Source: Cercospora beticola (lineage: Eukaryota > Ascomycota > Dothideomycetes > Mycosphaerellales > Mycosphaerellaceae). Taken from it: DNA of 64,000 bases. Where the stretch lies: contig NC_088939.1 of NCBI RefSeq assembly GCF_033473495.1, positions 1,922,001 to 1,986,000 on the forward strand, in the 5' to 3' direction. The position numbers and the translations under genes are program-made. Position 1 is the first letter of the stretch. Each line of letters begins with the position of its first letter. The notes below the pieces were generated by a model. The model did no database searches, had not been told where the DNA came from, and worked only from the letters and a program-made list of their open reading frames with translations. Of this stretch, positions 34,566 through 56,982 are shown one piece after another.

Positions 34566-36708
34566 CTATCGATCTGATACGGTTTCTATGTGGACTGCAG
34601 CTCCACCCTTGTCGACAGTGGAGTCGCCACGCTCCACCTTGCCAGCGTGGATCATGTCTTGAACATCGTGCCGGATCTTTTCTTCCTCCGTTGGATAAGC
34701 ATGGCGCCACATGGTGTACAGAGGTCGCGCAAAGAGGTCGTCCATCGACTCTATTGAACGACCCTTCATCTCCGGGAGGCAGAAGAATATGAACACCACT
34801 CCGCCGTAAGTCAACATGGAGTAGAGAAGGAACGTTCCCCTGCACAGCTTGTCAGTCTATCTGCTCAAACATGCTTGCAGAAGGAGTCACTCACCAGCCC
34901 ATCTCGGACAGCATCACTGGAGTCGCCTTGGTGATGCCATAGTCCACTATCCAGTTGATGAAGAAGCAGAAGGACATGCAGAAAGATCTGATTCGCGTCG
35001 GGAATATCTCCGCTGCAACGACGTAGCATGCGACAGAGTGGCCGAAACTCCAGCCAAATGCATAGATGTAGATGAAAACTATTCCGACAATACCACCTGC
35101 CGGCGTGCCTCCGACCGCGTCTTCACTGGCGTTGCCACCTGCGTACTTTATGTACAATGCCAGGTACAACATTGCAGTGGCCTGAAGACTTGCACCTATC
35201 AGGAGCGGCAGTCGGCGACCGATGCGACTGATTGAATATCAGTATTACGTGAACTATATTTGCGACGGTTGTACGACTTACTCGACAAGATATGCCACAT
35301 AAAAGATCGTAGTAACGAACTTCACAATGCCGTACACACCCTGGAGACCGGTGAGCTACTCGTTAAATGACCATTATACGGCGCACGACTTACGGTGGTA
35401 AGCAATGTATTGCTGTTGCCCTTTACCCCAATGAGCTTGAATATGGAAGGAGCATAATCTAGAGTCAGGAACCACTGCATCAGCGAATACTCTCTCCAAA
35501 ATCTCAACGTGTCCAAGGCAAGGAGTGTTCCGATACGTACAGTTCAAACTGTCTGTTCCGGTGAACTTGTGGAAAAGGAACAGCATCACTGCAAGAAAAA
35601 ATCGTTGAAAGTTGCTCTTGTTCCCGAATACGTCCTGAATGATCGTCCAGACGTTGTGTCCTTGGTGTGCCTGGAAGATGTCAGCTTCACGATAAAGAGC
35701 CAGACCATGGACGAGTGCAGGATACCGCTTGCTCGAAGCGCACTTGTGCTTCAATCTCCTGGTATTCCGTCTGGATATATGGATGATTTGCAGGCAGCTT
35801 CCGCAAAGCCATCAAGTTTTTCAGCCCTTGTTCAGACTTCCCGCGGTTGATCAAGTAGCGAGGTGTTTCTGGAATGAACGGGATCATAAGACACATGAGA
35901 GCTCCCGGAATCAGCTGGATCCCCATTGCGAGCCTCCACTGTGTATGGTTATGCTCGGCATTGTGCCAAAGTGACACACAATAATTGACCCAGAACGCTA
36001 AGGCAAGCGAGAACACGATCATGAGGTTGTACGTTGCCGTCATGGATCCACGGACGCTTTTTGGGGCGTTCTCTGCCAGAAATTGGGGACTTGCAAAGCT
36101 GGTCAGTGGCAGGCACAACGATATCTTAGGCACATTTTCGTGCATTTAAGATGCCTTCTAGCGACCAAACTTACCTCAACATCGAGCTGGCGCCAACGCC
36201 CATACCGCCGATGAATCGTCCGGCCAGGAGTGTGTCGTAGTCGGCGATCATTTGCATCACAGCACCGATGAGGAAGACTATGCCCCAAAGGAATACGGAC
36301 CATTTGCGACCCAGGACATCGGATGTAGGCCAGGCGCAGAGCGCTCCAGCAGAGCCCTACAACGGAGATCAGTCTTGCTCCCCATGGTTGTAATGCTTGG
36401 CCAACTCACTCCTGCTGCAAGCATAGCAGCGATGGTTCCCTGAGCGAAAATCAGCGCAATTCTGAATGCAGGTACGACTGGAAATATACGCTTTTCGCAT
36501 CAACCGCCTCTTGAGATAGCCCGCTGAGTCCGAACGCATTCTCAAACGAAGGGAGTGTGAGGATTCCGCCGATATTTCCCGAGTCGAAGCCATAGAAGCA
36601 GCCCGCCCACGCGAGAGTTACCAACAGGTAGAGGAGTCGGCCGTTGAAGATTGCCTTTGGATCAGTCCTGGCCTCTTTGCTGGCCCAGATGCTCGTTCCA
36701 CCAGCCAT
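34566..36708 (-). CDS. MFS sugar/quinate-type transporter, copy 1
   Basis: The start is ATG 36706-36708 (MAGGTSIWASKEA). The gene is split by several short introns; coding blocks read by eye run from RLLYLLVTLAWAGCFYGFD through DVLGRKWSVF, LAGRFIGGMGVGASSM, the block around PETPRYLINRG, FLFHKFTGTDSLN, GWSFGHSVACYVVAAEIFP and EMKGRSIESMDDLF, ending HIETVSDR. These are the sugar-porter signatures (GRK loop, RFIGG, PETPRYL, PE.KGRS). Twelve membrane segments are expected in the plasma membrane with proton symport. It is a close paralogue of the transporter at 55.1-57.0 kb and shares its leading MAGG, DSLN junction and C-terminal RSIESMDDLF. It is divergent from the Asp-box gene across a region holding two CGGA/TCCG elements. 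The substrate is probably a sugar acid, quinate-like compound or sugar. Confidence 0.85.
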
Positions 36709-36814
36709 CTTTTCGAGCACTCAAGCCAAGTCTTCGTGTGCTTGGGAGCCCGTGGCAGATGCGCCCAAGAAAAGCTTAGAGACCCCAAGGGCACCAGGCC
36801 AAGATATAAACACG

Positions 36815-36831
36815 CGGAACCACTCACTCCG
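36815..36831. promoter_or_regulatory. Inverted repeat CGGA-N9-TCCG (candidate Zn2Cys6 site)
   Basis: Half-sites CGGA at 36815-36818 and TCCG at 36828-36831 are separated by 9 bp; the flanking bases extend the palindrome to GCGGA/TCCGC. Gal4-type regulators bind such CGG inverted pairs. Confidence 0.65.
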
Positions 36832-36898
36832 CAACTCCAGATTACCCCACAACGTGTGTTAGGCGAGGTGTGGAGAGGCCTCCACGTGGTTTTTGTGT

Positions 36899-36914
36899 CG
36901 GAGAGGAGGTTCCG
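36899..36914. promoter_or_regulatory. Inverted repeat CGGA-N8-TCCG (candidate Zn2Cys6 site)
   Basis: Half-sites at 36899-36902 and 36911-36914 with 8 bp between; flanks extend it to TCGGA/TCCGA, identical to the halves of the element at 52461-52476. Confidence 0.7.
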
Positions 36915-37116
36915 AGTACGTACGGCATGGACCGAGAAGCGGATTTGAGACAATCGACTCTCCCCCGGCCGGCTGAAGGTCGCCGAGCTCACTGTTCACA
37001 CTGATCGATGCTGATCAAAGTGAAAGTTAACGTCGACCCTGGTTACCAACGTCCTCACTCAAGCTATCCGATAACTCAGTGTCGAGCACCTCTGCTTCAT
37101 TGAACAGGCAACCAAG

Positions 37117-38298
37117 ATGGCAGCAATCTTCGAGGAACCAGCACCCGATTTTGAGAACTTCGTTCTGACACCGAAGTCGCATCCCGTACAACACACAGAA
37201 TGCTTCATTCCGGCAGCGACACCGCAATGTCATGCTTCCAATCTCTTGATCCTAGATAATGGCGAGATGCTCTGCGCTTGGTTTGGAGGCACACAAGAAG
37301 GCAAACCAGACATCAGCATTTATCTCTCTCGTCGATCAATAGGCTCAACATCCTGGACCAAAGCCAAGAAAGTCACATTCGATACCACGAGAAGTGAGCA
37401 GAATCCTGTTTTGTTCCAGACTCCATCTGGCGAGGTCTGGTTGCTGTACACATCCCAACACCTTGGTGATCAAGACTCCGCTTTCGTCAAGAAGCAAGTC
37501 TCGCTTGATAATGGCTATACATGGAGCGAGCCAGAGGCGCTCTTTACCGAACCTGGAACATTTATTCGACAGCCTGTCGTCATTCTCGAGAATGGCTCGT
37601 GGGTCGTGCCAACGTTCAGATGTCGCTCAGAACCAGGCGAGCGATGGGTCGGCAACGATGATATATCAGCCATCCGCGTCTCTCAGGATCAAGGCAAGAC
37701 GTGGATCGAAAGAGAAGTGCCCAATAGCTTTGGTGCAGTACACATGGAGATCAAGCAACTCAAGGATAGAAGCTACCTTGCCCTATTCCGCAGTAGGTGG
37801 GCCGATTTTGTCTACAAAGCGACTTCTTCCAATGGTATCGATTGGTCTGAGCCAACGGCAACAACTCTCCCCAACCCAAACGCCGGAATCTGCTTCGATG
37901 TTCTGCCGTCAGGGCGAGTGCTTGCCGTCTACAATCACTCCTCCCGCCTCAATGCACAGGGTCGAAGAGAAGGACTGTACGACGATATCGCAGCTGCAGA
38001 CGATGTTCGATCCAACCAAGCAAGCAAACATGCTGGCAAGGAGGCATTCTGGGGCGCACCAAGAGCTCCTTTGTGTCTCGGATGGAGTGATGATGACGGA
38101 AAATCGTGGAAACACAGGATTCTGGAGGAAGGTGATGGATACTGCATGACGAATAACAGTGAGCAGAAGCTGAATCGGGAGTTGAGCTATCCGAGTATGG
38201 TACTGGGAGAGGACGAGGTGGTGCATGTCGCTTTCACATTCTGGAGGCAAGGGATAAAATATGTACAGCTGAGTTCAGATGTGGTGAACAGCTTGTAG
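37117..38298 (+). CDS. Asp-box (BNR) sialidase-like protein, cytoplasmic
   Basis: A single exon gives 393 residues from ATG 37117. The protein has a beta-propeller of the sialidase type. Asp-box-like turns recur: SLDNGYTWSEP, SQDQGKTWIER, SSNGIDWSEP and SDDDGKSWKHR. The N-terminal CHASNLLILDNGEMLCAWFGG and the later FIRQPVVILENG match the BNR_2 group found near sugar-acid genes in bacteria and fungi. There is no signal peptide, unlike secreted sialidases. Arg and Asp/Tyr residues that could make a sialidase site exist but cannot be assigned by eye. It may hydrolyse or isomerise a sugar-acid conjugate in the cytosol. Its promoter is shared with transporter 1. Confidence 0.82.
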   Translation: MAAIFEEPAPDFENFVLTPKSHPVQHTECFIPAATPQCHASNLLILDNGEMLCAWFGGTQEGKPDISIYLSRRSIGSTSWTKAKKVTFDTTRSEQNPVLFQTPSGEVWLLYTSQHLGDQDSAFVKKQVSLDNGYTWSEPEALFTEPGTFIRQPVVILENGSWVVPTFRCRSEPGERWVGNDDISAIRVSQDQGKTWIEREVPNSFGAVHMEIKQLKDRSYLALFRSRWADFVYKATSSNGIDWSEPTATTLPNPNAGICFDVLPSGRVLAVYNHSSRLNAQGRREGLYDDIAAADDVRSNQASKHAGKEAFWGAPRAPLCLGWSDDDGKSWKHRILEEGDGYCMTNNSEQKLNRELSYPSMVLGEDEVVHVAFTFWRQGIKYVQLSSDVVNSL

Positions 38299-38928
38299 GT
38301 AAATCACTTAATGATGGATGGTTGATCATGGTCGCTCACGCTGCAATGCTGGTCACCAAGCAAGCACTGCTCCAGACTGAGCCATTTAGCTTCGTAAGCA
38401 TCGCGGAAGGACAGGCGGATTCTGCAAAGGGTAACTTTTAACCAGCGGCCAACATAAAATCACCTGCAGCGAACTTGTGGCCTTCGCATTGTGACTCGTT
38501 TAGATCATTGTTTCGTCCGTTGCAGTGAGCCTACATGTGCCTATTGCCTGCGCACTGCTCGCCTTATCGCCGTCAAGGTAAAATCATAAGCCATTGCCAG
38601 ACGTGGTCTACCTTTAAACAAACATTAAAGTGTGGCACCAAACCCAGACACGCATCGCTGGCGAACACCTCGCTGCGATTCACCTTCCGTCTATTAGACC
38701 ATTACTCGTATCGCTCTTGCGCAAGAGACCTGAAGACGCGATTTTTGCACTTCAGCCTCTAAACAGGAGGAGCGCCGGACATCCCCCTCATGGCGCTCAA
38801 TCGACTCCACCTCAGCTTGCTTGTTCTGAGCGCTTTCCAGGCGGATTCGAAGGGGCCCTGAGCGTTATGGAATTGGTCATGCTGATGAGGTGCAATGGTT
38901 GCTCGCGATTTACTATGTACCTGTATGC
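38299..38928. other. Convergent intergenic region, about 630 bp
   Basis: This follows the Asp-box gene and precedes a leftward region of disrupted coding sequence. No gene or repeat is supported. Confidence 0.45.
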
Positions 38929-40594
38929 TCACATCGATGCCTTGACAAACGAACGCTCTTTGTGAAGAAACGCATGTCCATGCAAAGCTCTACTTCTTGT
39001 GATTGGGGTCGCCCGCTGTCGCGACGCCCGTGGTTCCCGGGTCAGCATCATCTCCTTCGCTCTCCTCATCTTCAAGCACTTGAATTTACCCCCGACAACT
39101 GAGTGAGAGTTCACAAGCGCTTCTGATCTCTTGCGCACAGCTTTGTTGAATGGCAACTTGTAGTCTTGGTAGTTTCTCGTGGCTGCAGTGAAGTGCATGT
39201 TCTTGAAGAAAAGATTGAGGTCAGTCAGAACACCTCGTTCCAGCATGATATGCTCGAAGTACTCGTTCACTCCGTTGGTGAGGGGAAACAGGGTGGTGCA
39301 GTCAGTCGGCTCAACCCGATATTGACTCGCAACATCGAAGAAGCCGTGAATCTTGCGTGAGCCGGTTCTGAGGTGATGGTTCCAGCCGGCGCCGCATTTA
39401 CCGATTTCCTTTTCGAAAAAGAAATACATGGTGAAATGCAACATGACTTCGGGCCTTGCATCATTGCCTCCCAACACCTGTTTCGTCCGCCGTTGTTGCC
39501 CGTGGAGTTGAAGTGCCAATGAAAAGCGCATACCGGGTCTGGACAGTCGATGTGATAGGCAGCATTCGCAAGGCTCTTGGGTGGCTTGATGTAGTGGACC
39601 TGTACAAAACGATCTCTGCACTGCAGCCGTGTTCGAGACACAAAGCAGGAATGAGAATGTCTCTGCTGTATTGCTCGACCATCTCGTGGTGACTCTGTTC
39701 AAAGTCAAACCTGAATGCATACTGCATGAGGCAATCAGGCTGGTTTCCATAACCGCGGCAGTTTCCCACACGAGTGCATTGCGTCCGGGCGTTATTGATG
39801 TTCCTCAGCTCGTATAGAGCATGTAATGTGTTGATGCAGGAGGTCTGACTGTTCAAATGCGAATATTCTGGCTTGCCACTGACACTGAGCCTCGCAAGCA
39901 TTTCGCCAGTAAGTCGTCCGAGCCAGACTTGAAGGACGAAATGGACCTGGAACTCGCCGTGGCAGGCGTTGCAACCGTCCCGTGGACATTTGTGGCCAAG
40001 TGGAAGCACGAAGACCTTGCCACTGATGCCGGCATAATCCGAGTACCTGACGTAGGGGTACAGGTCGCTCAGCGGCGAAAGAACGTATCCATCAAGGCAG
40101 CCGACTTCGTCAAGCCAATACTCGACAGCCTCACGTCGGAAAGGACCACGGTACCACAAGCGGCGAACGATTTCGAATGCCCGAAGCCCACACATGTACA
40201 TGAAGTCGCGGTCGCCAAGCAACGCTATCTTGCACACTGTCTCTGGGTCTTTGTGTCGGTATGCGCTCATGTACTCTTCGGCGCGTTCAACCGCAGTCGC
40301 CCGCACCCGATTGTGAGTCGGGCCAAACGGGCATGTCGGATATGCAGTTTTTGTGGGTATGTTTCCATCGACGAGTGGGTTTGTCTGGCACATCCATGCA
40401 AGTTGGAGGACATCTGGCAAGTCTTTGAACCAATCTTGTTGCTGGAATGCACACACATATTTTTCCTCGTTGCAGTGCTTGCATATCTTGTCGCTGGACG
40501 AGAGGAGAGCTCTCATGCCGATCCAGTTGCGGAGAGCAAAATGGAAGCTCCAGAAATGCACAAGTTGCGAGATCTCTCGCAGACTTGCTCCCAC
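38929..40594 (-). pseudogene. Hypothetical protein region using three frames in succession
   Basis: The open frame 40594-39461 (about 377 codons, no ATG at its start) reads like protein, with Cys/His-rich segments (KICKHCNEEKYVC, GHKCPRDGCNACHGEFQ) that may bind zinc, and LHALYELRNINNA. Near 39690 the plausible reading moves to a second frame (DRFVQVHYIKPPKSLANA, then FHWHFNSTGNNGG), and near 39500 to a third (TKQVLGGNDARPEVMLHF to LPFNKAVRKR). The shifts are not accompanied by introns long enough to be spliced at the second site. It may be a decayed gene, a gene with unseen introns, or carry sequence errors. I do not recognise a family. Confidence 0.4.
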
Positions 40595-40744
40595 AACTAC
40601 ATCGCTTGTCGAGACGGAGCGCCTTAGCTACGCTGCATAATGCAGAGATACGAGGATCGGAAGGGCACTCGACTTCCCCGGGCCGAGTAGTACGCAGTGT
40701 TCGTAGTTCCTGTTTCGCAAGGTCTCCAACTGATGCGGTATGGT

Positions 40745-40945
40745 TTAGTGCGATGTGGCACCGAACGCGATACAAGAAGGGATACCTCCGTATTTGGCAG
40801 CATCGGCTTTCAGCACATCGATCTGCTGTCGGAATTCATCGAACGACGAGGATGCGCCATTGGCTGAATATTGCTGGAACAGACCTCGGACGCCATTCGT
40901 GATGTAGGCGCACCGGCGGATCTGTTCAGCTGCACCAGGAGCCAT
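40745..40945 (-). CDS. Possible small protein, 66 residues
   Basis: ATG at 40943-40945 opens a frame beginning MAPGAAEQIRRCAYITNG and ending AFGATSH. The composition is protein-like and the frame continues upstream for 70 more codons without an ATG beyond a weak start. An adjacent frame encodes a hydrophobic run (ILVLGYLFVTLLINLRAQL), so an upstream exon with a membrane segment is possible. Evidence is limited to composition. Confidence 0.25.
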   Translation of the reverse strand: MAPGAAEQIRRCAYITNGVRGLFQQYSANGASSSFDEFRQQIDVLKADAAKYGGIPSCIAFGATSH

Positions 40946-41248
40946 TGAATGGATGTCGAGGTTGCGGAAGACAAGTGACGCTGTGTCCGAGCTGAGCACG
41001 GAGATTGATGAGAAGGGTGACGAATAAGTACCCGAGCACGAGAATTGCTGAGAAAGAAGTGAAGGGCTCGGAAATGAAGGCGGAGAGGTGGTGGTGTTGG
41101 TGGCATGTCGATTTCTGTAAATGTAAGCAGGCAGAAGTTTCGAAACGGAAGCCACTACGTGTCACTCACGCGTATTCTTCACCCTCTCTTTCTCTGATTC
41201 ACGATCATGCCTGCGATGCCGCACGTCTCCCATGATGTCTGGACGCCT

Positions 41249-41590
41249 ACACACATGGCCGCCGCATCTTGCCTTCAGTTCTTTCTCGTGAACTCCAGCA
41301 TGTTACGATGGATCGCAAGACTACACCCATGGCGACCGCATCTTGTCTTCAGTTTTCTCCCGCATTCTCCAGCATGTTACGATGGATCGCAAGACCACAC
41401 ACCTGTCCCATGCTGCTCTTCTTTCTGCTTGTACTTGTCGTACTGTTATTCAAGCTGCCGAGCATGGTACGATGGATAGCAAGAGCACACGCATCTCGAA
41501 CACTGCTCTGCTACTTTTGGCTCGTACTGATTTTGCTGCTCCTCGGGCTGCCGAGTATGCTACGATGGATAGCAAGACCACACGCATGCC
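41249..41590 (+). repeat. Degenerate direct repeats, at least four copies
   Basis: A core resembling CATGTTACGATGGATCGCAAG recurs at about 41299, 41373, 41463 and 41556 (intervals 74, 90 and 93 bp), each followed by an ACAC...CGCATC-like stretch and spaced by pyrimidine-rich DNA. A partial unit lies near 41249. Copies 2-4 are in phase, and one frame across them repeats a SMLRWIARPH-type motif alternating with hydrophobic runs (LFFLLVLVVLLF, FWLVLILLLLGLP). Whether this is expressed is unknown. Confidence 0.7.
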
Positions 41591-41994
41591 GACCGCATCT
41601 GATCTACCGCATGGAGCAAGTGACAGTGAGTGTGGTGCAGTCGTGGAAAATATGCGTTGAACAGAGCGGCGACTATGTACTCACTGTCCCGAACGGCAAC
41701 CACAAGGCGCCGTCACAAGGAACTCAATGCTTCCGATCAGGGCTGCTCGCTATTCTTCGCATCGCATTTCGTTGCCAAGTGACTTTCGGTGCTAGTGAGT
41801 GGCATTAGGCCACTTTGTTGCTTGTTCTTGAGAATTTGAGATTCTGTTGCGACAATTTGAGGCTCTGCCAATTCTTCCATCCTCTGCCTTCGATTCGCAA
41901 AAGCGGATCCTATATCTCCGAATCATTGAAGGCTCTCAGCTGTCCGGTTTGGCCTTGGGCAAGACTGCGCCGCAGAGCACTATTGGAAACACCA
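41591..41994. other. Intergenic, about 400 bp
   Basis: This runs from the last repeat to the stop codon of the DenD-like gene. The frame that crosses the repeats stays open to 41808 but loses any repeated pattern. Nothing else is supported. Confidence 0.4.
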
Positions 41995-42987: not shown

Positions 42988-43359
42988 TGTTCTTCTGTGA
43001 CGGCAATATTGAGTGCGTGTAGCTGATTGTCGTTTATGGCGAGAGTTGAGAGCAATACTATATCTTGATTTCGTGATGACTTGGCGAATATACGTGTCGA
43101 TAAATGGCCAGTTCGTTTTCGCATACTGACCAACTCCGGTACACATGACAAACCTCAGTCTGCTCCGATCCAGTCGCTGGAACCGGAGTAGTCAAGCCTG
43201 GGCACGCGAAACCACTTCCGACTCTAGCGCGGAGCCTCTTCCCGGTCACGGAAGTCACAGGTCCGCAGTCGAAATCCTCAATTGGGTGGAAAGTCTGCGC
43301 CTAATAGATGGGAAGGAAAGGCAAGGATATGGCGAGTTGAAGATGGGTCTTTCGCTTCA
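42988..43359. promoter_or_regulatory. Promoter region of the DenD-like gene
   Basis: These 372 bp follow the stop codon of the kinase-reductase fusion gene. One CGGA-N9-TCCG element lies at 43249-43265, about 260 bp upstream of the DenD-like start codon. Confidence 0.55.
43249..43265. promoter_or_regulatory. Inverted repeat CGGA-N9-TCCG (candidate Zn2Cys6 site)
   Basis: CGGA at 43249-43252 and TCCG at 43262-43265, spacer 9 bp. The flanking base pair does not extend the palindrome, so this is the weakest of the five. Confidence 0.5.
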
Positions 43360-46221: not shown

Positions 46222-47562
46222 ATGAGCAGGTCTACGATATCCTACGAGGATGTTCGCGAAGGAAAGAGCGGAGGAATCAACCCAGACACCAGCACCATCG
46301 CCCCACGGGAAGAGCAATCCCTCGAACGAGTCCATCAACTGTTACCAGAAGCTGGCGAGAAACCAGACCTCTACAGCTTGATCTCTGTGCACGACTTCGA
46401 AGATGTCGCTCGGAACGCTTTAGCGCCCAAAACATGGGCCTTCTACTCGTCTGCAGCTACCGATCTTGTCTCACATCAGGCCAATCTCATGTGCCATCGA
46501 AGGTTGTTGCTGCGCCCACGCGTCCTTCGCGATGTAAGGCAGGTGAAGACGAAGCGCAAGATCCTTGGCCACGAGTCCAGCATACCAGTGTTCTTCAGTC
46601 CAGCTGCGATTGCCAAATTAGCGCATCCTGAGGGCGAGATCGCTGTAGCGAGAGCCTGTGGTAATCAAGGGATTGTCCAGATTGTATGTCGTGAACACAA
46701 TCCGCCATCTTGAATGATGCTAACAGAGGCGTTGTAGGTATCAAGCAACGCTTCCTACCCCCTCGCCGACATCGTCTCCGCAGGCTCACCCGACCAACAC
46801 TTTTGGCTGCAACTGTATGTCAACTCTGAACGACACAAGACCGAGCAACTGCTGCACCACGCTCGAGAACTTGGCGTCAAAGCTGTCGTGGTCACCGTCG
46901 ATGCTCCTGTCCCAGGCAAGCGCGAAGCGGATGAGCGGATAGCAGCAGAGAATGTTGCGGCAGCTATCAGTGGTGCAATGGCTACGAATGACAAGAAAGG
47001 AGGAGGTCTGGGTCGAGTGATGGCAAAATACATTGATGCGTCGCTGAACTGGGAGGATCTCGCTTGGATAAGGCGAGTCTCTGGACTCCCGGTTGTCTTG
47101 AAAGGCATTCAGACTGCGAGCGATGCACAGAGAGCAGCGGACTATGGCGTGGAGGCAATCTTGCTCAGCAATCACGGCGGGAGATCTCTCGACACGACAC
47201 AACCTGCGTTGGTGACCCTGCTTGAGATGCACAAGTGTTGTCCGGACGTGTTCCAGAAATTGGAGGTCTACGTCGATGGGGGCTTCACTCGCGGCACAGA
47301 CGTTCTCAAGGCTGTAGCACTGGGTGCCACGGCTGTTGGGATCGGGAGGCCATGGCTATATAGCTTGTGCTACGGACAGGAGGGTGTGGAACACCTGATC
47401 GATATCGTGAAAGACGAGCTCGAGACGTCGATGAAGCTAAGTGGCATCACGGACATCGATGAGGCTTCTCCGGGCATGGTGAATACATCGATGCTGGAGC
47501 CTTTGATCCGTGAATCGGACAGCCATCCTTGGATCAAATGGAAGCCGATCGCGAGGTTGTAG
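46222..47562 (+). CDS. FMN-dependent 2-hydroxyacid dehydrogenase (lactate dehydrogenase/glycolate oxidase family)
   Basis: Two exons (46222-46683, 46738-47562) joined by a 54-bp GTATGT intron give 428 residues. The family motifs are present: AFYSSAATD near the N-terminus, PVFFSPAAIAKLAHP, WLQLYVNSE, VVVTVDAPVPGKRE, PVVLKGIQ with the catalytic Lys, ILLSNHGGRSLD with the active-site His and Arg, YVDGGFTRGTDVLKA and ATAVGIGRPWLY for FMN phosphate. There is no cytochrome b5 domain and no obvious mitochondrial presequence, unlike yeast Cyb2, so electrons probably go to oxygen or another carrier. It would oxidise a 2-hydroxyacid to a 2-oxoacid; in this setting a sugar acid is a plausible substrate, by inference. 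Confidence 0.9.
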
Positions 47563-47725: not shown

Positions 47726-47733
47726 CTTCCAAG

Positions 47734-48189
47734 CATAGATTTTGAATCCTGAATATTCAATTCAACTCGGCTAAATTCAAATTCAATTCAGAAACTAAAT
47801 TGAACATTCAAATTCAATTCAATATATTCAGCTTATAAATCAGTCTCCTATGACGTATTCTCGGTTTACGACGACGATATCGAGGTAAAGAGTAGTCTAT
47901 AGGCAGAGTAATATACGTACTAAGCTCCTAACGATAAGAGCCCGGATAAGAGCCCTAGTACTAGAGAAGTAGCAAAGCAGAGCGGAGAAGGGACTATAGA
48001 GCAGAGCGGAGAGCGACTATAGCAGGGTATCGCTAAGCCTAGCCTCCGAGTACACCGCCGAGAGCACTATTTTTAGTACAAGCTTTGAATTGAATTTGAA
48101 TTTGAACATTCAAAAAGCCGGATTCATATTCAATTCAACTCTGAATTTGAATTGAATTTGAATAATCAATTCAGTATTCAAAATCTATG
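47734..48189. mobile_element. MITE-like element with terminal inverted repeats and 8-bp target duplications
   Basis: The element is 456 bp. Its ends are inverted repeats starting CATAGATTTTGAAT; over 21 bp they differ at one position. Identical 8-bp direct repeats CTTCCAAG flank it (47726-47733 and 48190-48197). Eight-bp target duplications are typical of the hAT superfamily. Inside the ends, both arms are built of short AATTCAA/TTGAATT repeats, and the 220-bp core is nearly free of TG dinucleotides. No transposase frame is present, so it would be non-autonomous. It lies about 100 bp upstream of the ATG of the Zn2Cys6 gene. Confidence 0.82.
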
Positions 48190-48291
48190 CTTCCAAGGCC
48201 GAGAGAATACATCGCGACATCTCAATCGACCTCGCCTCACCAACACCAGACTCCGTGCTGTTCCATCGGATGGAGGCAAGGCGTTCCCAAC

Positions 48292-50278
48292 ATGTCGTCA
48301 AACGCAAAGCGCAAGCACAGCGAGATTGCAAACCTGGACGATGAGCGGCCAGAGCCGAGCAAGCGCCTGGCGGCGGCATGCACCGCATGCAGAAGACAGA
48401 AAATCAAGTGCGACATGATCAATGAAGAGCCGCCGTGTTCACGCTGCCAAAGACGCGGTATCACCTGTGTTCTCCATACCGCAGTGCGTCACCCTATGGC
48501 GGACGCCAAGCAGGTCGGTTTGATGGGCAAAGACCTGGCCAACATCCATGCCACTCTGGAGAAGATATGCCAACATCTGAATCTCGAACTGCCGAGACCT
48601 TTGGCGACAGGGCAGCAGAACGATGCAGGTGCTCGAGCCGCCCCCAGGACTGGGGAAGAAGATGATGATCCAGAAGACACATGTGAGCTGTCGCCACCGG
48701 CATCGCCTTCTACAGCCCACGCCCCGATGGACATGTACTTGACAAGCACACAAGAGCCTTCATTGGGTGTAAATAGCCCTCGCAGGCTTCGTCGCAGAGG
48801 AAGCGAACGAGTCGACATGATTAGCAAAGGCCTGATCTCTCTGGAAGACGCAGAGACGTTGGTGCACAAATACCTGGAGCATTTGGACCCTTTCGTGTAC
48901 GGAATCACAGGCGGATACAAGGATGCGACGCACGTTCGTCGAGCATCACCAGCCCTCTTGGCCGCGATGTGCACCGTTGCTGCGTTTCATGATCCTACCA
49001 ACAAGCATCTATTTGAGATCTGCAATCGCGAGTACAGATCGATCATCTCAAGCTCGCTTTTCGAAAAACGAGATTTGAAGTTCGTGGAAGCGTTGTGTAT
49101 TGGAGCTTTTTGGCTGCCAGATGCATCGCGAATCCTGCTCAACGATGCCATCCGCAGGGCGAAAGATCTCAAGCTGCACCGGAACTTTCTAAGACTCACA
49201 GAGCCAGCGCTGCTGGCAGCCACCTCGCCCGGCTCAGTGGTGGACATTACTGAGATTCGAGACAGAGTCCGCCTTTGGTACTTGCTGTACATCTGCGATC
49301 AGCACTTGAGTATACTGCATAATCGAGACCGGATTCTGAGGCAAGAAAAGGAAGCCGTTGAGAATAGAGAACTCTTTATCGCAGGCGGAGAGCCTGTGAC
49401 AGCCCAAGACGTTCGAGTCATGTCCCAAGTCTGCTTGCTGGTAATTATGGGCCAGGTCAGAGATGTCTTTGGCAGCGAATCCATCAAACCAGTGTCAAGG
49501 ACCTTGACTGTGCAATTAGCACACTTCGCGCGAGAACTGGATGCTTGGTATGCTAGATGGTCTTCCATCTTCGGTGCGTTCACAGATCACAGCTTGCTTA
49601 GTGCACTTTGCTAACCCGCTTTACCTAGAACCTGATAAGCATATTGGATCTTTCCCTCTGTCTGGCCTCACCGTTCACTGGCAATTTGCCAAACTCTACC
49701 TCGGTCATCATGTCTTTCGCGGGATCGAGAACGACCCAATCCCGACACACTTTCTCACCGCCGCGACTACAGCACGCGATGCTGCAATTACAATCTTTAC
49801 GATGATTGCCGAAGACGAATCCTTTCGCAACCATCTAAACGGCATGCCAATATACTTCCATGTCATGATCTCCTTCGCCGGACAGTTCCTGATGGGGATT
49901 TGCCTGAAGTATGGACAGCAACTCGGCATCGATGTGGAAGGGGAATTTCGGCGCATCAGTGCTGCACTCGCAGTGTTCGCTCGCACACCAGCATTACCTT
50001 CACATCCAATCTCGCGTATGACCGCCGGATTGACAAGGAAGTTGAACGAATGCGCAGCTGCTCTGGGGATAACGTCAATATTGACTGAAAGTCCCTTCGC
50101 ACACAACCAAGACCTCTTGGCAAGCAGGGCAGACCTGGCCGCGGCAAATGCCAACGGAGACAACATTCACAGCACAGTGTTCGATCTTCAAGCTGCAAAC
50201 GGGTTGCCGGAAGACTTCTTGTACGCTGGCTTTGGAGATATGACGTTTCCTGATACGCAGTTCCACTATACGACTTGA
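48292..50278 (+). CDS. Zn2Cys6 transcription factor, likely regulator of the cluster
   Basis: Two exons (48292-49573, 49629-50278) joined by a GTGCGT intron give 643 residues. ATG 48292 is chosen over an upstream ATG at 48187 that lies in the end of the inserted element. The zinc cluster has Cys at 30, 33, 40, 49, 52 and 59 (CTACRRQKIKCD, CSRCQRRGITC). A short linker and helix (LANIHATLEKICQHLNLEL) may be the dimerisation coil. The fungal-specific middle domain follows from about 165, with LHRNFL and RLWYLLYICDQHLSI-like motifs. A CGG-pair inverted repeat occurs at the neighbouring promoters. Its stop codon is 11 bp from that of the convergent aldolase fusion. Confidence 0.92.
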
Positions 50279-50289
50279 AGCAGTTCCCA

Positions 50290-52251
50290 CTACGCTACAT
50301 TTGCATCGGCATCATCATGAAAGATGATTGCTCCCCAATCTGGTCGGTTAAAGCGCTTGCCTTGTTTTCTTGCCAGCTCATCGATAGCCTGCATCTCGGC
50401 TGGGCTTGGCACAAAGTTGTCCTCTAGGTTCGCAGCGATTCGCTTCGGACTGATGGACTTGGGTATCACGGACCAGCCCTTTGCAATACCCCAGGAAAGC
50501 ATTACATTGCCCGTCGCGACGCCTCTCTTCTCAGCAATCTGGACAATGACGGGCTCCTCGTGCAAGGTGCTCCCTGTGCCACCTAAGGGCCCGAAAGCTG
50601 TTTGGTGAATACCCTTCGACGAACAGAACGTGTGTAACTTGTCTTGAGGTAGAAGAGGTTGAATCTCAGTCTGGTTAACAGCTGGCACGGTCCTCGCTGT
50701 TTGGAGGAGCTTTTCGAGATTCACGGTCGAGAAGTTCGCGACACCAATCGCACGGACTTTGCCAGTGTCTAGCAGCTTCTCCATCTCCCTCCACGTATCT
50801 CGGAAATCCCAGCCTTCGACATGGACATTTCGATCTTCTTTGCCGTACTCTGCTCCTGTGTCTGGACTCAGCGTGACAGGCCAGTGCATGAGGTAGAGAT
50901 CGACATAGTTCAATCCAAGATCTTGGAGAGACTTGTCTAAGGCTTGCTGTACGCGTTGATGGTCCGAGGACCAGAGCTTCGTTGTGACGAAGAATTCTGA
51001 TCGAGGGATCGGCGCGCTCTTGAATACTTCACCGATTTCCGCTTCGTTGAAGTACAGCGGCGCGCAGTCGAAATGGCGATATCCTGCTGCAAACGCCTCT
51101 TTTACAGCTTTTGCTGCATCACCAGGTGCAGCTTTCCAGGTACCAAACCCGACAGCAGGGATTTGAGCACCTGTGTTGAGTGTAAAATGGCTTCGAACAG
51201 ATTCCTGCCCGACAGAATGCCCATTCGTTCCATTGCTGAGCTTAGAAGCTGGTGGAGGCCGAGAGATCACATCGGGAAGAGATTGCTCGAGCTCAGCCAA
51301 AGGTTGCATCGTGACGATTGTCGACTCTTGCAGTGCTTTTCCGGCTGGCTGATAAGGCTTTCTTGTACTGAAAGACGCATGACTCGAAAGACCAGCTACT
51401 GGACCAGCGAAGTACGCTGTGCCAAATTTGGTTGCCGAGAGACCTTTCTTGCAAGCGCCTTCGGCCAGCGCGACTTTCCCTTGGAGCTCTCTCGCTTCCT
51501 CGATCTTACCTTCTTGCCATAGCGAGTAAAGCTTCGACACCGATTTTGGGAATACATTGCCGATACCAGTCACACAGCCAATCCCGCCTCCGATCAAACA
51601 GGGAAGAAGCCAATCCGATTGTCCAGAGAAGACCGCGAATTCCGAAGGCTTGAACTTGGCAGTAAGTGAGGTCACTTTGCCAGCGTTCGCACAAGTGAGC
51701 TTCACGCCAACGATATTGGGATGTGGCGCTAGTTGCGAGAGAATGTCGACACTGAGGTCAATGCCTGACGTGACGCCTGGAAAGTTGTAACAGATTATCG
51801 GAATCCTCGAGTTATCCGCCACCTCGCGATAAAACTCTACAATCGCATCGTTCGTTATCACCTTGGGCCAATAACTCGGAGGTAGCAAAAGTCCAAAATC
51901 TGCTCCAGCAGCTGCTGCATCTTCTGCGAGTCGGATTGATTCATTCGTGGATTGCCCGCTGATTCCAGCAGCTAAAGGAAAATCCGGGACTCCGAGGTCG
52001 ATTGCTGCTTTTCGAGCTGTGCGAGTGATATCTATTCTTTCTTCTCGGGATAGCAGAGCTGCCTCAGCTGTGGAACCTTGGAGCACCAGGCCATTTACGC
52101 CGCCTTTGATGAGGTGGCAGAAGTATGTGTAGCTTGCTTCGAGGTCGATTTCTTGGCGAGGTGTGTCTTTGTATAATGAGATGACGGGACACCAAACGCC
52201 GGCTGGGACGGCGGGTGACGTTGTAGAAGGCGATTGCTGGAAGTGTGGCAT
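50290..52251 (-). CDS. Fusion of a DapA/KDG-type aldolase with an aldo-keto reductase
   Basis: A single frame encodes 653 residues from ATG 52249-52251. Residues about 15-315 form a DHDPS-family class I aldolase: VLQGSTAEAALLSREER, the Tyr in ICYNFPGVTSG, and the Schiff-base Lys in IVGVKLTCAN. After a Ser/Gly/Asn-rich linker (about 315-352), residues 353-640 are an aldo-keto reductase with FTLNTGAQIPAVGFGTW, the tetrad Asp/Tyr in YRHFDCAPLYFNE, Lys in VTTKLW, His in LYLMHWP, and IPKSISPKR for NADP. In fungal galacturonate catabolism a similar aldolase makes pyruvate and L-glyceraldehyde, and a separate reductase makes glycerol. The fusion joins an aldolase and an aldehyde reductase. The actual substrate is unproven. 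Confidence 0.92.
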   Translation of the reverse strand: MPHFQQSPSTTSPAVPAGVWCPVISLYKDTPRQEIDLEASYTYFCHLIKGGVNGLVLQGSTAEAALLSREERIDITRTARKAAIDLGVPDFPLAAGISGQSTNESIRLAEDAAAAGADFGLLLPPSYWPKVITNDAIVEFYREVADNSRIPIICYNFPGVTSGIDLSVDILSQLAPHPNIVGVKLTCANAGKVTSLTAKFKPSEFAVFSGQSDWLLPCLIGGGIGCVTGIGNVFPKSVSKLYSLWQEGKIEEARELQGKVALAEGACKKGLSATKFGTAYFAGPVAGLSSHASFSTRKPYQPAGKALQESTIVTMQPLAELEQSLPDVISRPPPASKLSNGTNGHSVGQESVRSHFTLNTGAQIPAVGFGTWKAAPGDAAKAVKEAFAAGYRHFDCAPLYFNEAEIGEVFKSAPIPRSEFFVTTKLWSSDHQRVQQALDKSLQDLGLNYVDLYLMHWPVTLSPDTGAEYGKEDRNVHVEGWDFRDTWREMEKLLDTGKVRAIGVANFSTVNLEKLLQTARTVPAVNQTEIQPLLPQDKLHTFCSSKGIHQTAFGPLGGTGSTLHEEPVIVQIAEKRGVATGNVMLSWGIAKGWSVIPKSISPKRIAANLEDNFVPSPAEMQAIDELARKQGKRFNRPDWGAIIFHDDADANVA

Positions 52252-52460
52252 CTTCGCTAAAGTTCTGGGATGGATCAGATGTCTGTCCGGCCAGAGAGCA
52301 TTTCAGAGCAACGAGACGATGTCAGAATAAAGTGAGCCAATGCGGATTACTAGAGCAATTCCGCGCGGCGAGACTGGTGCCGGCCTTCTTCCTGGCATCG
52401 GTGGACCTTTGGTTTGGTGGATAGAGAGCTCGGCGGGCATGCCGACTTGTTGATTACCGT

Positions 52461-52476
52461 CGGAGGAAGCCTTCCG
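52461..52476. promoter_or_regulatory. Inverted repeat CGGA-N8-TCCG (candidate Zn2Cys6 site)
   Basis: Half-sites at 52461-52464 and 52473-52476, spacer 8 bp, flanks TCGGA/TCCGA. It lies 210 bp upstream of the aldolase fusion start. A wider pair, GCGGA-N13-TCCGC, occurs nearby at about 52342-52362. Confidence 0.7.
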
Positions 52477-53973
52477 AGGTCTGTCCCGAGCAGGTCGAAT
52501 TGTCTGATGTGGTGTCACAAGGCTCATTGCTTTGGTGAAAGTGTACGTGGAGAGCTGTGGGGTATTTCACTCTCTGCCGAGCCTGCCGCTGATCGATGTC
52601 TGGTCTAAATGCCATTCAAGTCGACGACTACACATCTCAATGTACGACCATCGACACTTCATGAAGCGCAGCAAGCTATGATGGACGTGATGGGGCTGAA
52701 GTTGACTTGAGCATGGTCACCAATTTGATCGCCGGATGGACATTGAAGCGGGCGCTCCTGAGGCTTCGCGACGCGATTTCCCAGGACCCGTCGCACCGTT
52801 CCTCGCCAAGTTGTGACGGGACGACCGATGTACAGCAAGATTCTGGATAGTGGCGGCATTGAATGGCATAAAAGCCTGTGTACAGCCTGCCTGGCTGCGT
52901 AGGACGGACTCTCCTCTGGACGCCCGGTATCTTAAAATATCCAAAGGCACCAAGTGGATCTATTCCTCCGCCTATAACTCTTGTGGCATGTACTGGGTGT
53001 GCATGAAAGATGCGGTGCAGTGAGATGTTTTTGGAGACTGCGTCCCGAGTATGTGACCAGCTCCGTCAGATCCCAGCTCTCTCAGTCGACCATGCTCTTG
53101 AATAGTCAACGATGTCTGTTCAAGATCTTCTGCACTATTGGAAGCTCTCAACGGGCGCTTTCGTCGGAGAGATGAAGCAGCTACTGCCGTCTCGTGTGGC
53201 TGGTTACTGGTGTCCTCGATTCAGCAAATTTTTGGTCGTGTCCTGGATGAGAGCAGAATTTACGACCTCGACACAGGTGTCGTGGCCTGGGCTGGGAATT
53301 GAAATGTCTGCCAAGATTCAGTTGCACATGACCGCAACTGGTATCAAGGACTTGTATTCAGAGATGCAGATGAGTTCTGGTAGCCACGACAGTCAATGGT
53401 GCAACGCTTCTGACGTACTGACACGTCGATCTGAGTAGAAGGCATCGGGCCGTCGTCGTTTCCGATTCCTTTGCGCGGTCGAATATCATCCGTTCCCGGG
53501 CCGGGCATGTCGTCGGCCCTAAGGGTTTCCAGCCTGTTCACAACCCCGACTACGGTGGAGCAACAAGCTTCTCCTGATAGCTTCTGAAAGTCAAGCTGAG
53601 TCTATCTGTCCCGATGTCGTCCAGTATCAGACCACCTACATCAGCCTATTTACTATGCCTCTCAGCAAAGCAAGAAGCCCTTCGACTTATGTTATGCCCA
53701 ACACTGAAACGCAACCAGAGATTACGTACGAATCCGCCCGAGGGCGAAATTCTCTATATGGCGCAACGTGCTCAGCCTCGGGGACGCGTCTAATGTGATA
53801 TGTGCGAGGAGCAGAAATAGCAACCCTTTCAGAACTCCACCACGTGTTTCATGATGCGGCCGCAGTTCCGATTCATCCTACAAAGTTTTCTAAAATGGGA
53901 GATTTTGGCTTTCCACCCGTGCACAAAGCTCCTTCTTGACCTAACACAAGCTAATTGTACTAGCTTAGGGCTG

Positions 53974-53999
53974 AAGACCAGTGGACTAGAACTGGTCTT
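53974..53999. repeat. Perfect 9-bp inverted repeat with 8-nt loop
   Basis: AAGACCAGT and ACTGGTCTT flank GGACTAGA. A second weaker inverted pair, AAGCTA/TAGCTT, lies about 20 bp to the left. No gene end or T-run accompanies them, and no function can be assigned. Confidence 0.5.
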
Positions 54000-54587
54000 A
54001 TAGGCGCAGTAAAGTAAGTGAGAAGCCACAAAATTAGGGAACATCTATACGCTGGGCATCGAGCATCGCCAGCTCGACACCACGTAACCTGTGCAGATAC
54101 ACGGAATAGAAAGGCGTACTTGGTATAGCAGTGCCGTAGGTTATCTCACCCTAGCACAACGAACCTGGCGGCGTAGTCTTCGTTGTCTCAGGCTTGAAGT
54201 TTTGTGGATTCTCTCCCTACTCTCTCAGTCCGCTGCTTGGCATCTGCTCGTATTCCTTTTCCTTGTAGCTGATGATGGTCTGTCAAAGTAGCTAGCAGTC
54301 GTAACAGCGATCTTATTGCGGAATAGGGTGTCGATCACTCCCGTATTCTGGACATGAAACAGTCTGATCGCTGTCGTGCCTTGCGCGTACATGCCAAGAT
54401 TCCGTAGTAGACTAAAACACAGGCTGGATATATTTGAGGCTTCCTGGTGGTGACTGCCTACTCTCCAGTAAGTCAACATTACAATACGTCTTTCACATAC
54501 AACATCACTGTACGTATTAACTCTTTGCGTCCGACTATCAGCTTCGTACTGACTCCTTCGAAGCGTCAGACCTCACAAAGAACCAGG

Positions 54588-54943
54588 ATGCAGTTCAACG
54601 CAGTCATCGCTCTGGCAATTGCCACATTCTCAGCAACTCCAGCTCTGGCCGAGCAAGTAAGTGCAGCCATTGAGATTGTATCTGCAGATTCTAACCGGTG
54701 AAGGTACAATGCTGGTACGACTTGGATTGCCAGAACGGGCTCTACTGCGGCCCAGGCAACATTTGCGCGGATGCTGTCCAGGGAAACGCCAACAGACAGC
54801 AGGGCCTTTGCGTGTTCGACCAGGAGTGCACCGTCGAAGATCCAAAAGTGGTCGATTTCTGCTGGGATGGTTCATGCACAGATCCTGCCTCCGCCAACGC
54901 TGTGGCTGCTGGCGTGCCTCTTACTCCTCCACAGCAAAACTAA
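54588..54943 (+). CDS. Small secreted cysteine-rich protein
   Basis: Two exons (54588-54656, 54704-54943) joined in phase 0 across a 47-bp GTAAGT intron give 102 residues. The signal peptide is MQFNAVIALAIATFSATPALA. The mature part of about 80 residues has eight Cys in the pattern QC-x5-DC, YC, IC, LC, EC, FC, SC, an even number suited to four disulfides, and ends in a Pro/Gln tail. Small size, secretion and Cys content fit a candidate effector or an apoplastic protein. I do not recognise a family. It lies between the gene-poor stretch and transporter 2. Confidence 0.82.
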
Positions 54944-55115
54944 GTCCTGAGATATCAGAGTCCTCTTGTTCAGTAAGGCAAGTTGAGCAATCAGTTGAGG
55001 CGCTATGCCGTGATTCAGCATGCCAGACGAGATACAATCATATAGAGCGTGCTGTATGGCAAGCTATCACTGTCTAACCACCGCATGAGCTCTGCGACAA
55101 ACTCCACGCTGACAA

Positions 55116-56982
55116 TCATGTCCTCTCCACTCTCTCAGTTACCGTTGCGGCCGAGCCCTTAGCATCGGCATGTGACTCTTCGAAATCTACCGTTTTCTCC
55201 ATCATAGTATCCTGAACGTCTCTTCGCACCTTATCCTCTTCTTTTGGGTACGCAAATTTCCACATCATCCACAGAGGATGTTGGAAGAGGTCATCCATAG
55301 ATTCAATGGATCTGCCCTGTAGGTTTGTCAGTAATTGTGGTGGATCAAGCTAGAAGGAAGAGACCTCTGCCTACCTTGGTTTCTGGCAAGCACAGCCATA
55401 CGAAGCCGACCCCGAGGTAGGTCAAGACCGCGTACATCAGAAAGATGCCCCAGCCCATCGTTGTAATCATGTTTGGTGTTGCACGCGTGATACCTGGCTC
55501 AGCTGTCAGCAGACAATTGTAAACACATGTGAAGCGATCTTACCATAGTTCACGATCCAATTTGTGAAGAAGCAGAAGGACATGCAAAACGAGCGCTGGA
55601 GAGTAGTCAGTAACAGATCATATCAAATCAAAACTGTCGTTTGATGGCTTACGATACGAGCAGGAAATATTTCTGCAGCAACCACATAACATGCGACTGA
55701 GTGTCCGAACGACCATCCGAAAGCGTAGAGGTAGATAGCAATGATGCCAACGATGCCTCCAGCTGGAGTACCGCCAGTAACAGTCTCTGGGTCAGGGCCG
55801 AATCTGACGTAAAGTGCCAGGTAGAGCATGCAAGAAGCCTGGATGGTCGCACCCACGATGAGGGGTAGACGGCGTCCAACATGTTCGACGAGGTAGCCAA
55901 CGTAGAAGATAGTGGTGACAAACTTGACGACACCGTACACGCCCGTTGTGAGAAGTGAGTTGCCGTCACTGACGCCGATGATCTGGAAGATGCGAGGGGC
56001 GAAGTACTATGACATGTCAGTAAGCCGAACGAAGTTACTAAATCGTTCCTCTTACATTGAGCGAGTCAGTTCCGGTCAGCTTGTGAAACAAGAAGAGCAT
56101 AACAGCGAGGACAAATCTCTGAAAGTTACTCGGAATCGTGAAGATGTCCTTCAGGATTTGCCAGTAGCTGTTGCCAGCATGAATTTCCTGCTCCGCTGCG
56201 ATCTGGTTGTACGTCTCATTGTATTCGAGTTGAACATAAGGATGATCGGCAGGAAGACCTCTGAGCTTGCTGAGATTGGCAAGCCCTCTTTCGTTCTTCC
56301 CAATACGGATCAGGTACCGCGGCGTCTCGAGGAGAAATGGCACCATCAAGCACATGAATCCGCCGGGAATAAGCTGAATGGACATCGCAGTCTGCCATTG
56401 GGAAGTGTTATATTCGATATTGGGTCCAGACCACAAGGAAACTCCGTAATTGACCCAAAAGGCAATCATCAAAGCCACAATGATGCAGAGGTTATACGTG
56501 CATACCATTGAGCCTCGGACCGATCGTGGAGCATTCTCTGACAGGAACTGCGGTACTAGCATGCTGCAACTGCCGACGCCCAAGCCACCAATGAATCTTC
56601 CAGCAAGCAAGACGTCAAAATTCGGTACCATCTGTAGTGCAGCTCCGAGCATGAAGACAAGCCCGTAAGTGAAGACCGACCATTTCCGTCCCAGGTAATC
56701 CGAGGATGGAGCAGCCATCAGAGCCCCAAGAGAACCACCTGCTGCGAGCATGGCTGCGATGGTACCCTTCTTGTCGTCGCGTTGCTGCTGAGTATCGTCG
56801 ACCAAGCCGAAAGACCGTTCGAAAGAGGGAAGTTCCATGATACCGCCGATGTTGCCTTGATCGAAGCCATAGAACATGCCCGCCCAAGCTACTGCCACCA
56901 ATAGGTAGAGTAAGCGGCCATTGAAGATCTCGCTGGGGTCCTTTTTCGCATCATTGCTCAAGAATAAAGAGCCTCCAGCCAT
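55116..56982 (-). CDS. MFS sugar/quinate-type transporter, copy 2
   Basis: The start is ATG 56980-56982 (MAGGSLFLSNDAKKD). The first exon runs to about 56055 and covers the first half: YLGRKWSVF, LLAGRFIGGLGVGSCSM, ENAPRSVRGSM and LLETPRYLIRIGKNERG. Later exons hold YFAPRIFQIIGVSDGNSLLTTG, VGYLVEHVGRRLPLIVG and GWSFGHSVACYVVAAEIFPARI. Short terminal exons give the RSIESMDDLF motif and end TERVERT. It is the paralogue of transporter 1 in sequence and probably in intron position (both break after DSLN). No CGGA/TCCG element was seen in its upstream 500 bp, so it may not be under the same control. Confidence 0.87.

Follow-up and report, generated by a model that had tools for sequence, protein, structure and literature searches.

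A conserved gene cluster of Cercospora beticola with a sialidase-fold protein, a DUF1537 kinase and an aldolase, a probable acid-sugar catabolic route with a bacterial parallel

Introduction

The bacterial D-erythronate pathway comprises DenD, OtnI, OtnK and OtnC (PMC12540250, in excerpt). The same excerpt describes a three-step bypass in which the 2-oxo acid is phosphorylated and then converted to dihydroxyacetone phosphate (DHAP) via a PF01116 protein, without OtnI. In the fungal D-galacturonate pathway, GaaA to GaaD, an aldolase is followed by a reductase (PMC6353982, in excerpt). A further operon, region GR6 of Escherichia coli BEN2908, has a similar cluster in Sinorhizobium, and the sections of PMC12928451 drawn on here name no substrate for it. 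In this study, we describe a gene cluster spanning approximately 34.5 to 57 kb of a 64,000-nucleotide stretch of the Cercospora beticola genome (the window; contig NC_088939.1, positions 1,922,001 to 1,986,000, forward strand), which is part of contig 5; the genome measures 36 Mb and comprises 10 contigs. The cluster encodes a BNR_2 sialidase-fold protein, a DUF1537 kinase and a DHDPS-family aldolase, and is very probably a conserved fungal route for the catabolism of an acid sugar. It probably follows the same pathway logic as a bacterial operon that is marked by homologues of its BNR_2 protein.

Gene content of the cluster

An earlier note, made from the sequence alone, had listed the genes that lie together here. 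Matches to Pfam and NCBIfam profiles confirmed that all of them are present, with the correction that the two aldo-keto reductases (AKRs) are parts of two fusion proteins and not extra genes. The features are as follows.

34566..36708, minus strand: MFS sugar porter 1, several exons, positions of the ends approximate; PF00083 (Sugar_tr) on the exon at 35687-36145
37117..38298, plus strand: BNR_2 sialidase-fold protein, 393 amino acids (aa), one exon; PF13088, 222.5 bits
41995..42987, minus strand: DenD-like dehydrogenase, 330 aa, an SDR of the epimerase type; NF043036, 343 bits
43360..45849, minus strand: DUF1537 kinase-AKR fusion, 829 aa; PF07005 (SBD_N), 187.8 bits; PF17042 (NBD_C), 121.3 bits; PF00248, 217.6 bits
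46222..47562, plus strand: FMN-dependent 2-hydroxyacid dehydrogenase in two exons, 46222-46683 and 46738-47562; PF01070, 84.2 and 265.3 bits
48187..50278, plus strand: Zn2Cys6 transcription factor, start at 48187 or 48292, one intron at about 49.6 kb; PF00172, 39.2 bits
50290..52251, minus strand: DHDPS-family aldolase fused to the second AKR, 653 aa; PF00701, 133.6 bits; PF00248, 154.7 bits
55118..56982, minus strand: MFS sugar porter 2, several exons, position of the 3' end approximate; first exon matches PF00083 with 189.8 bits

The joined exon model of the FMN enzyme is free of stops and encodes 428 aa. Distances between the five genes from DenD to the aldolase-AKR fusion are 11 to 624 bp, and a gap of 3.7 kb separates BNR_2 from DenD. 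The earlier statement that no OtnC is seen in the cluster was borne out: PF00596 (Aldolase_II, the OtnC fold) gave 13 matches in the genome and none in the window.

Conservation in other fungi

The nearest named homologues of the kinase-AKR and aldolase-AKR fusions are from Cercospora and are 94% identical. To follow the genes further, 76 kinase-AKR sequences (some partial), 120 BNR_2, 28 aldolase-AKR and 23 AKR-transporter fusion (AKR-MFS) sequences were compared. Linkage was deduced from contigs of exactly equal size and from locus-tag numbers, not read as gene order. Since the kinase and BNR_2 sequences were drawn from the best 120 of 6538 and the best 120 of 6641 hits, respectively, the resulting counts are lower bounds. 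The kinase-AKR fusion shared a contig with BNR_2 in at least 18 cases, with AKR-MFS in at least 11 and with the aldolase-AKR fusion in at least 5, and BNR_2 shared one with the aldolase-AKR fusion in at least 6. Some of these contigs are just 9 to 55 kb long; others extend over megabases and hence provide weaker evidence of linkage. Named examples were found in Pseudocercospora, Zasmidium, Microdochium, Cryphonectria and Aspergillus, which belong to three fungal classes. In Zasmidium cellare, BNR_2, kinase and aldolase carry the tags PRZ48_010228, 010230 and 010233, and in Pseudocercospora eumusae kinase and aldolase carry AC578_10497 and 10500. In both cases, the tag spacing matches the gene order and the number of intervening genes in the window.

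One further locus, L019 (contig NYXK01000071), contains a porter, an aldolase-type AKR, BNR_2, DHDPS, a regulator, a kinase-type AKR and DenD as separate neighboring genes; domains that are fused in Cercospora are thus neighbors elsewhere. Its regulator-like stretch is 42% identical to the Zn2Cys6 protein of the window over 405 aa. The contig is filed under a deltaproteobacterial metagenome-assembled genome (MAG) and its content is fungal (Zn2Cys6 and MFS genes, with matches to DHDPS and DenD broken into pieces); it is probably a contamination of the MAG. The fungal gene set is real and conserved, beyond chance co-occurrence, as homologues of both fusions and BNR_2 turn up together in further fungi.

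A bacterial operon marked by BNR_2

Scanning one genome per bacterial or archaeal species confirmed at least 558 relatives of BNR_2, of which the best 80 were kept. On a first look, with L019 included, DHDPS adjoined BNR_2 in 61 of these 80 loci. Without L019, 79 bacterial loci remained, with BNR_2 homologues 50 to 56% identical to the fungal protein. Their content was determined by tblastn over up to 21 kb around BNR_2, using bacterial queries drawn from these same loci, some of which are cut by contig ends. The DUF1537 kinase was detected in 66 loci, PdxA in 65, DHDPS in 60, an SSF symporter in 59, and an iron-containing alcohol dehydrogenase (Fe-ADH) in 56. DHDPS, Fe-ADH, kinase and PdxA were all present in 54 of the 79 loci, and this four-enzyme locus is distributed over 29 of 35 genus labels, a few of which are unnamed MAGs. 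Ten of the whole genomes behind these loci (2.5 to 9.5 Mb) contained 1 to 2 PdxA and 1 to 4 DUF1537 matches each; therefore, chance nearness to BNR_2 is estimated at about 1% for either gene.

In E. coli MS 69-1, the RefSeq annotation of the operon comprises a D-threonate kinase/dehydrogenase pair, Fe-ADH, DHDPS, TerC, sialidase-family and YhcH-family proteins, and an SLC13 permease. There is no aldehyde dehydrogenase in this annotated operon; the other loci were viewed through chosen open reading frames (ORFs) only. Of the 5426 E. coli genomes that are complete, 1044 carry the operon, listed as region GR6 in strain BEN2908.

Additional genes accompany BNR_2 in some of the loci, and several of them suit an acid-sugar substrate. 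A protein of DUF386, the family to which a sialic acid anomerase belongs, is encoded in 25 of the 79; one member reached 90.8 bits against the N-acetylneuraminate anomerase model, missing its cut-off of 160, and passed the family model. Seven loci contain a TctA-type transporter cluster, of which one member was checked by Pfam; in 5 Pantoea loci, a GH28 cluster, with two ORFs checked in the same way, lies close to BNR_2. The SSF, SLC13 and TctA families include transporters of di- or tricarboxylates or of sialic acid. In Pantoea L055, the BNR_2 locus lacks kinase and PdxA genes, and a kinase-PdxA pair is located elsewhere in the genome. Genes for an ABC sugar importer and GH28 stand beside SSF and BNR_2 in Pantoea L053 and L055 (about 1.5 to 8 kb), without aldolase-kinase genes. 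In a Ralstonia locus (L021, 5882-8362), the DUF1537 kinase and PdxA share one open frame of 826 aa, possibly a kinase-dehydrogenase fusion, and ORF starts suggest the same single frame in some other Burkholderiales.

Substrate logic of the bacterial operon

Curated models were run against eight kinases and six PdxA proteins of the operon. The kinases of Pectobacterium (L025) and Escherichia (L093) pass the D-threonate kinase model DtnK with 613 and 533 bits (cut-off, 450), and their PdxA proteins pass the D-threonate 4-phosphate dehydrogenase model with 682 and 679 bits (cut-off, 583). For the other six kinases, D-threonate kinase was also the best kinase model, with the cut-off missed (180 to 323 bits). 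The other four PdxA proteins missed the D-threonate cut-off and passed only the general 4-hydroxythreonine-4-phosphate dehydrogenase model, TIGR00557. This last result would suit an assignment of the DUF1537-PdxA pair to the making or salvage of a vitamin B6 precursor, a pyridoxal phosphate role that the excerpted PMC12928451 gives it; nearness to BNR_2 would then be uninformative and the fungal parallel misleading. With all four enzymes combined in 54 of the closest loci and the pair passing D-threonate models in two genera, we regard this assignment as extremely improbable.

Aldolases of the DHDPS family yield pyruvate and an aldehyde. Should reduction be the sole fate of this aldehyde on its way to a four-carbon acid, a carboxylate has to be present in it already, and the substrate would therefore be a seven-carbon 3-deoxy-2-keto diacid. 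Working out the stereochemistry by hand showed that the D-lyxo configuration at C4 to C6 leads to D-threuronate and, upon reduction, to D-threonate, with C5 and C6 retained. The same rule takes Kdo to D-arabinose, in agreement with known chemistry. The natural diacid of this kind known to us is 3-deoxy-D-lyxo-2-heptulosaric acid (Dha). Dha is listed among the monomers of rhamnogalacturonan II (RG-II) in the portion of PMC6353982 used here. The chances that the substrate of the fungal cluster is a seven-carbon ulosarate, with Dha of RG-II as the best candidate, appear about even.

A related possibility is that the aldolase cleaves 3-deoxy-D-arabino-heptulosonate (DAH) to pyruvate and D-erythrose, which would be oxidized to D-erythronate for DenD, by its model a D-erythronate dehydrogenase. 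No aldehyde dehydrogenase was found in the annotated E. coli operon or among the subset of window ORFs scanned. Fe-ADH and AKR normally reduce aldehydes, and for two of the bacterial kinase-dehydrogenase pairs the models point to D-threonate. A DAH route is accordingly judged highly improbable.

Regulation by KdgR was considered for the enterobacterial operon and is unsupported. A palindrome search in L025 gave two one-mismatch hits, with 0.68 expected, and the strict consensus was absent from the 16 loci searched; a different conserved dyad (TGATTATATTCAATCAC-like) stands there instead, so a link to the pectin regulon via KdgR lacks support. This dyad, TGATTATATT(C/G)AATCAC followed by TTGATTATATGTGAGCA, lies upstream of Fe-ADH at 6203-6438 of L025 and in a matching stretch of most of 16 enterobacterial loci. 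A DeoR-family gene stands at the operon in L093, and the dyad is likely the operon's own operator.

Enzymes of the fungal cluster

The DenD-like protein scores 343 bits against the D-erythronate dehydrogenase model NF043036 (cut-off, 325). In a tree of 36 kinase sequences, in which several bacterial branches are very long, the window kinase falls in a fungal clade of 27 with 100/100 support, which includes kinases fused to PF03446 dehydrogenases (LTD type). Its identity is 53 to 78% to members of this clade and about 20% to the bacterial kinases. By sequence, it is a fungal LTD-type, 2-OtnK-like kinase. Operon-level homology with the bacterial kinases was rejected in view of this low identity and the separate clades.

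The genome has two DUF1537 genes. The second, on contig C4 (1254500-1264000), has a PF03446 dehydrogenase gene in its vicinity, and a RecA-like ORF separates them; the two may be a split relative of the LTD fusion. On contig C6 (1110951-1112899), a PF01116 aldolase gene converges with a second DenD-like gene, the two being separated by about 120 bp. The latter scores 315 bits, below the cut-off of 325, and is 41% identical to the DenD-like protein of the window. A monooxygenase-like ORF was seen nearby by eye. The PF01116 protein is a candidate 2-OtnC-type aldolase, and the pair is possibly a stand-alone four-carbon acid module. Neither PF04166 (the PdxA family) nor DUF386 had a match across the whole fungal genome.

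These data bear on a plain four-carbon route, in which dietary D-erythronate or D/L-threonate would be degraded via DenD, the LTD-type kinase and the PF01116 aldolase, with DHDPS, the AKRs and BNR_2 unrelated. DenD above its curated cut-off, the position of the kinase within the fungal LTD clade, the PF01116 gene adjoining a second DenD-like gene and the OtnI-free bypass (PMC12540250, in excerpt) all agree with it. The BNR_2 and aldolase homologues, however, stay linked to the kinase in other fungi, and BNR_2 in bacteria marks an operon with both aldolase and kinase, which makes this route decidedly unlikely.

The closest solved sequence to the aldolase part of the DHDPS-AKR fusion is 3qfe, and identity to a Bacillus DHDPS is 29% over 222 residues. 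An aldolase fused to a reductase also suits a hexonate route. Here, 2-keto-3-deoxygluconate (KDG) or 2-keto-3-deoxy-L-galactonate would be cleaved to pyruvate and glyceraldehyde, the fused AKR would form glycerol, and the kinase would serve a separate four-carbon acid. The final reactions of the galacturonate pathway are likewise those of an aldolase followed by a glyceraldehyde reductase (PMC6353982, in excerpt), and a pectinase-type gene is next to the cluster:

32432..33906, minus strand: GH28 pectinase-type glycoside hydrolase; 3' exon matches PF00295 with 110.4 bits; start and introns assigned by eye

The product has a hydrophobic N-terminal stretch (2.20 KD), and the gene ends 659 bp from the left porter, outside the cluster bounds given above; it is a possible cluster member. 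The aldolase and reductase of the galacturonate pathway are DHDPS-family and AKR enzymes themselves. The hexonate route is nevertheless unlikely: no sugar-acid dehydratase was found among the subset of window ORFs scanned, the sialidase-fold protein is unexplained, and so is the union of aldolase, Fe-ADH, DUF1537 kinase and PdxA in bacteria.

The BNR_2 gene provides the only PF13088 match in the genome; the BNR_2-type family as a whole gave 6641 hits among 7998 scored candidates. Because a sequence search for solved relatives gave weak matches only, nearly all of them sialidases, fold comparison was used, and it showed a sialidase fold. Identity to GH33 sialidases and Kdnase is 15 to 18%. By motif mapping with Neu2 numbering, R225, R227, R284 and Y358 are invariant in 49 of 49 sequences. 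A sialic-acid-like route would make BNR_2 a sialidase or Kdnase acting on Kdn, Kdo or another ulosonic acid, and DHDPS the lyase. The fold fits such a role, but no signal-peptide-like stretch was found in the protein, the first arginine of the triad is apparently a histidine, and the established products of Kdn and Kdo, mannose and arabinose, leave no need for a four-carbon acid kinase. This route is very unlikely.

Two further ORF observations concern the spaces between the cluster genes. The two ORFs scanned in the gap between BNR_2 and DenD (38300-41900) matched no Pfam family; a minus-strand ORF at 39461-40627 lies in this gap and has no family match. Between the aldolase fusion and porter 2, at 54588-54943 on the plus strand, reading by eye showed a gene with a single short intron for a small protein that is rich in cysteine and begins with a signal-peptide-like stretch.

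Discussion

The broad idea of the earlier note, an acid-sugar cluster with a DUF1537 kinase, DenD, a DapA-type aldolase and a different ending, is backed by the conservation of the genes in fungi and by the parallel bacterial operon. Its substrate, proposed as a four-carbon or a 2-keto-3-deoxy acid, may be both: the bacterial operon suggests that a keto-deoxy acid is cleaved and that the fragment is reduced to a four-carbon acid, all in one route. On the reading favored here, the aldolase and the AKRs would not take the place of OtnC and OtnI, as the note had it, and would act upstream of the four-carbon branch.

The best reading of the sequences is that the fungus follows the bacterial logic with mostly non-orthologous enzymes, BNR_2 alone being clearly shared. 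We infer all of the substrates and the order of the steps in the following scheme. The porters would import Dha or a small Dha glycoside, and cytosolic BNR_2 would free or open the ulosaric acid. The DHDPS domain would split it into pyruvate and D-threuronate, a 4-oxo four-carbon acid, which the fused AKR would reduce to D-threonate. DenD and/or the FMN enzyme would then oxidize C2 to give 2-oxo-D-erythronate. D-Threonate is (S) at C2, the configuration used by FMN-dependent 2-hydroxyacid dehydrogenases, so a task would be available for this enzyme. The DUF1537 kinase would phosphorylate C4, and the PF01116 aldolase encoded on C6, acting as a 2-OtnC type, would yield DHAP and CO2. The release or opening by BNR_2, the oxidation at C2, the final aldolase step and the role of the second AKR are the least certain parts.

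Several observations weigh against this scheme. On the bacterial side, the 79 loci are those nearest to the fungal query, with many from the same genera; 11 of them have none of the four enzymes, and 61 contain an SDR, a member of a common family with no place in the scheme. Of the eight kinases and six PdxA proteins tested, just two each pass the D-threonate models. The KdgR box, in 16 loci, was not found as a strict consensus and was found once, in L038, with a looser pattern. The kinase-PdxA pair is tied to pyridoxal phosphate synthesis in the excerpted PMC12928451. On the fungal side, DenD exceeds its cut-off by only 18 bits, and its model is named for D-erythronate and not D-threonate, which give the same 2-oxo acid. 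The kinase misses both the D-threonate kinase model NF047819 (53.8 bits; cut-off, 450) and the 3-oxo-tetronate kinase model NF043035 (22.4 bits; cut-off, 350). By the motif mapping, H39 apparently replaces the first sialidase arginine of BNR_2. Neither a kinase nor an FMN enzyme was found within the 21 kb examined of L019, an observation that speaks against both being essential there. Finally, as the fungal and bacterial enzymes are mostly non-orthologous, a common substrate is something that we infer.

Among the glycans of the plant cell wall, RG-II is the most complex. The literature searched, which left most subscription papers outside its scope, revealed no route by which its Dha is catabolized. 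We tentatively propose, at somewhat less than even chances, that the first such route has been found here twice, in the bacterial operon and in the fungal cluster, around a cytosolic, ulosaric-acid-specific BNR_2 protein of a new kind. If so, a function would be assigned to a sialidase-fold family of thousands of members and to a poorly explained operon of plant pathogens, soil bacteria and about one-fifth of complete E. coli genomes. Bacteria and fungi would, in addition, provide a clear example of a single pathway put together from distinct enzyme families. The operon in E. coli was already known, with its substrate unnamed in the excerpted PMC12928451; what is new is that bacterial BNR_2 homologues mark it.

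Comparison with known systems

Among GH33 sialidases and the fungal Kdnase, the BNR_2 protein finds its fold. It differs from them in its low identity (15 to 18%), in having no signal-peptide-like stretch and in the apparent histidine at the first arginine.

The fungal galacturonate pathway resembles the cluster in that an aldolase precedes a reductase (PMC6353982, in excerpt). In the window, however, the two are fused and lie beside a sialidase-fold protein, DenD and a kinase, with no dehydratase among the scanned subset of ORFs.

With the bacterial D-erythronate pathway, the cluster has in common DenD, above its cut-off, and a DUF1537 kinase. In contrast, no OtnC-fold match lies in the window, the kinase scores under the curated cut-offs, and an aldolase branch is added upstream. 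The L-threonate three-step bypass and the plant LTD protein share with the fungus the kinase clade and a PF01116 aldolase in the genome (PMC12540250, in excerpt). The fungal dehydrogenase, however, is a DenD-type SDR and not LtnD, the activities are spread over several polypeptides, and PF01116 is on another contig.

The closest counterpart is the bacterial BNR_2/DHDPS/Fe-ADH/DUF1537/PdxA operon. Its BNR_2 proteins are 50 to 56% identical to the fungal one, at or above a threshold of 50%, and in both a DHDPS aldolase, an aldehyde-reductase-type enzyme, a DUF1537 kinase and a transporter are clustered. The fungus has AKRs where bacteria have Fe-ADH, and has DenD and the FMN enzyme, with no PdxA or DUF386 genome-wide. 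Its LTD-type kinase shares about 20% identity with the bacterial kinases, and its DHDPS shares 29% with one bacterial enzyme across 222 residues. The fungal kinase misses the DtnK cut-off, as do six of the eight bacterial operon kinases tested.

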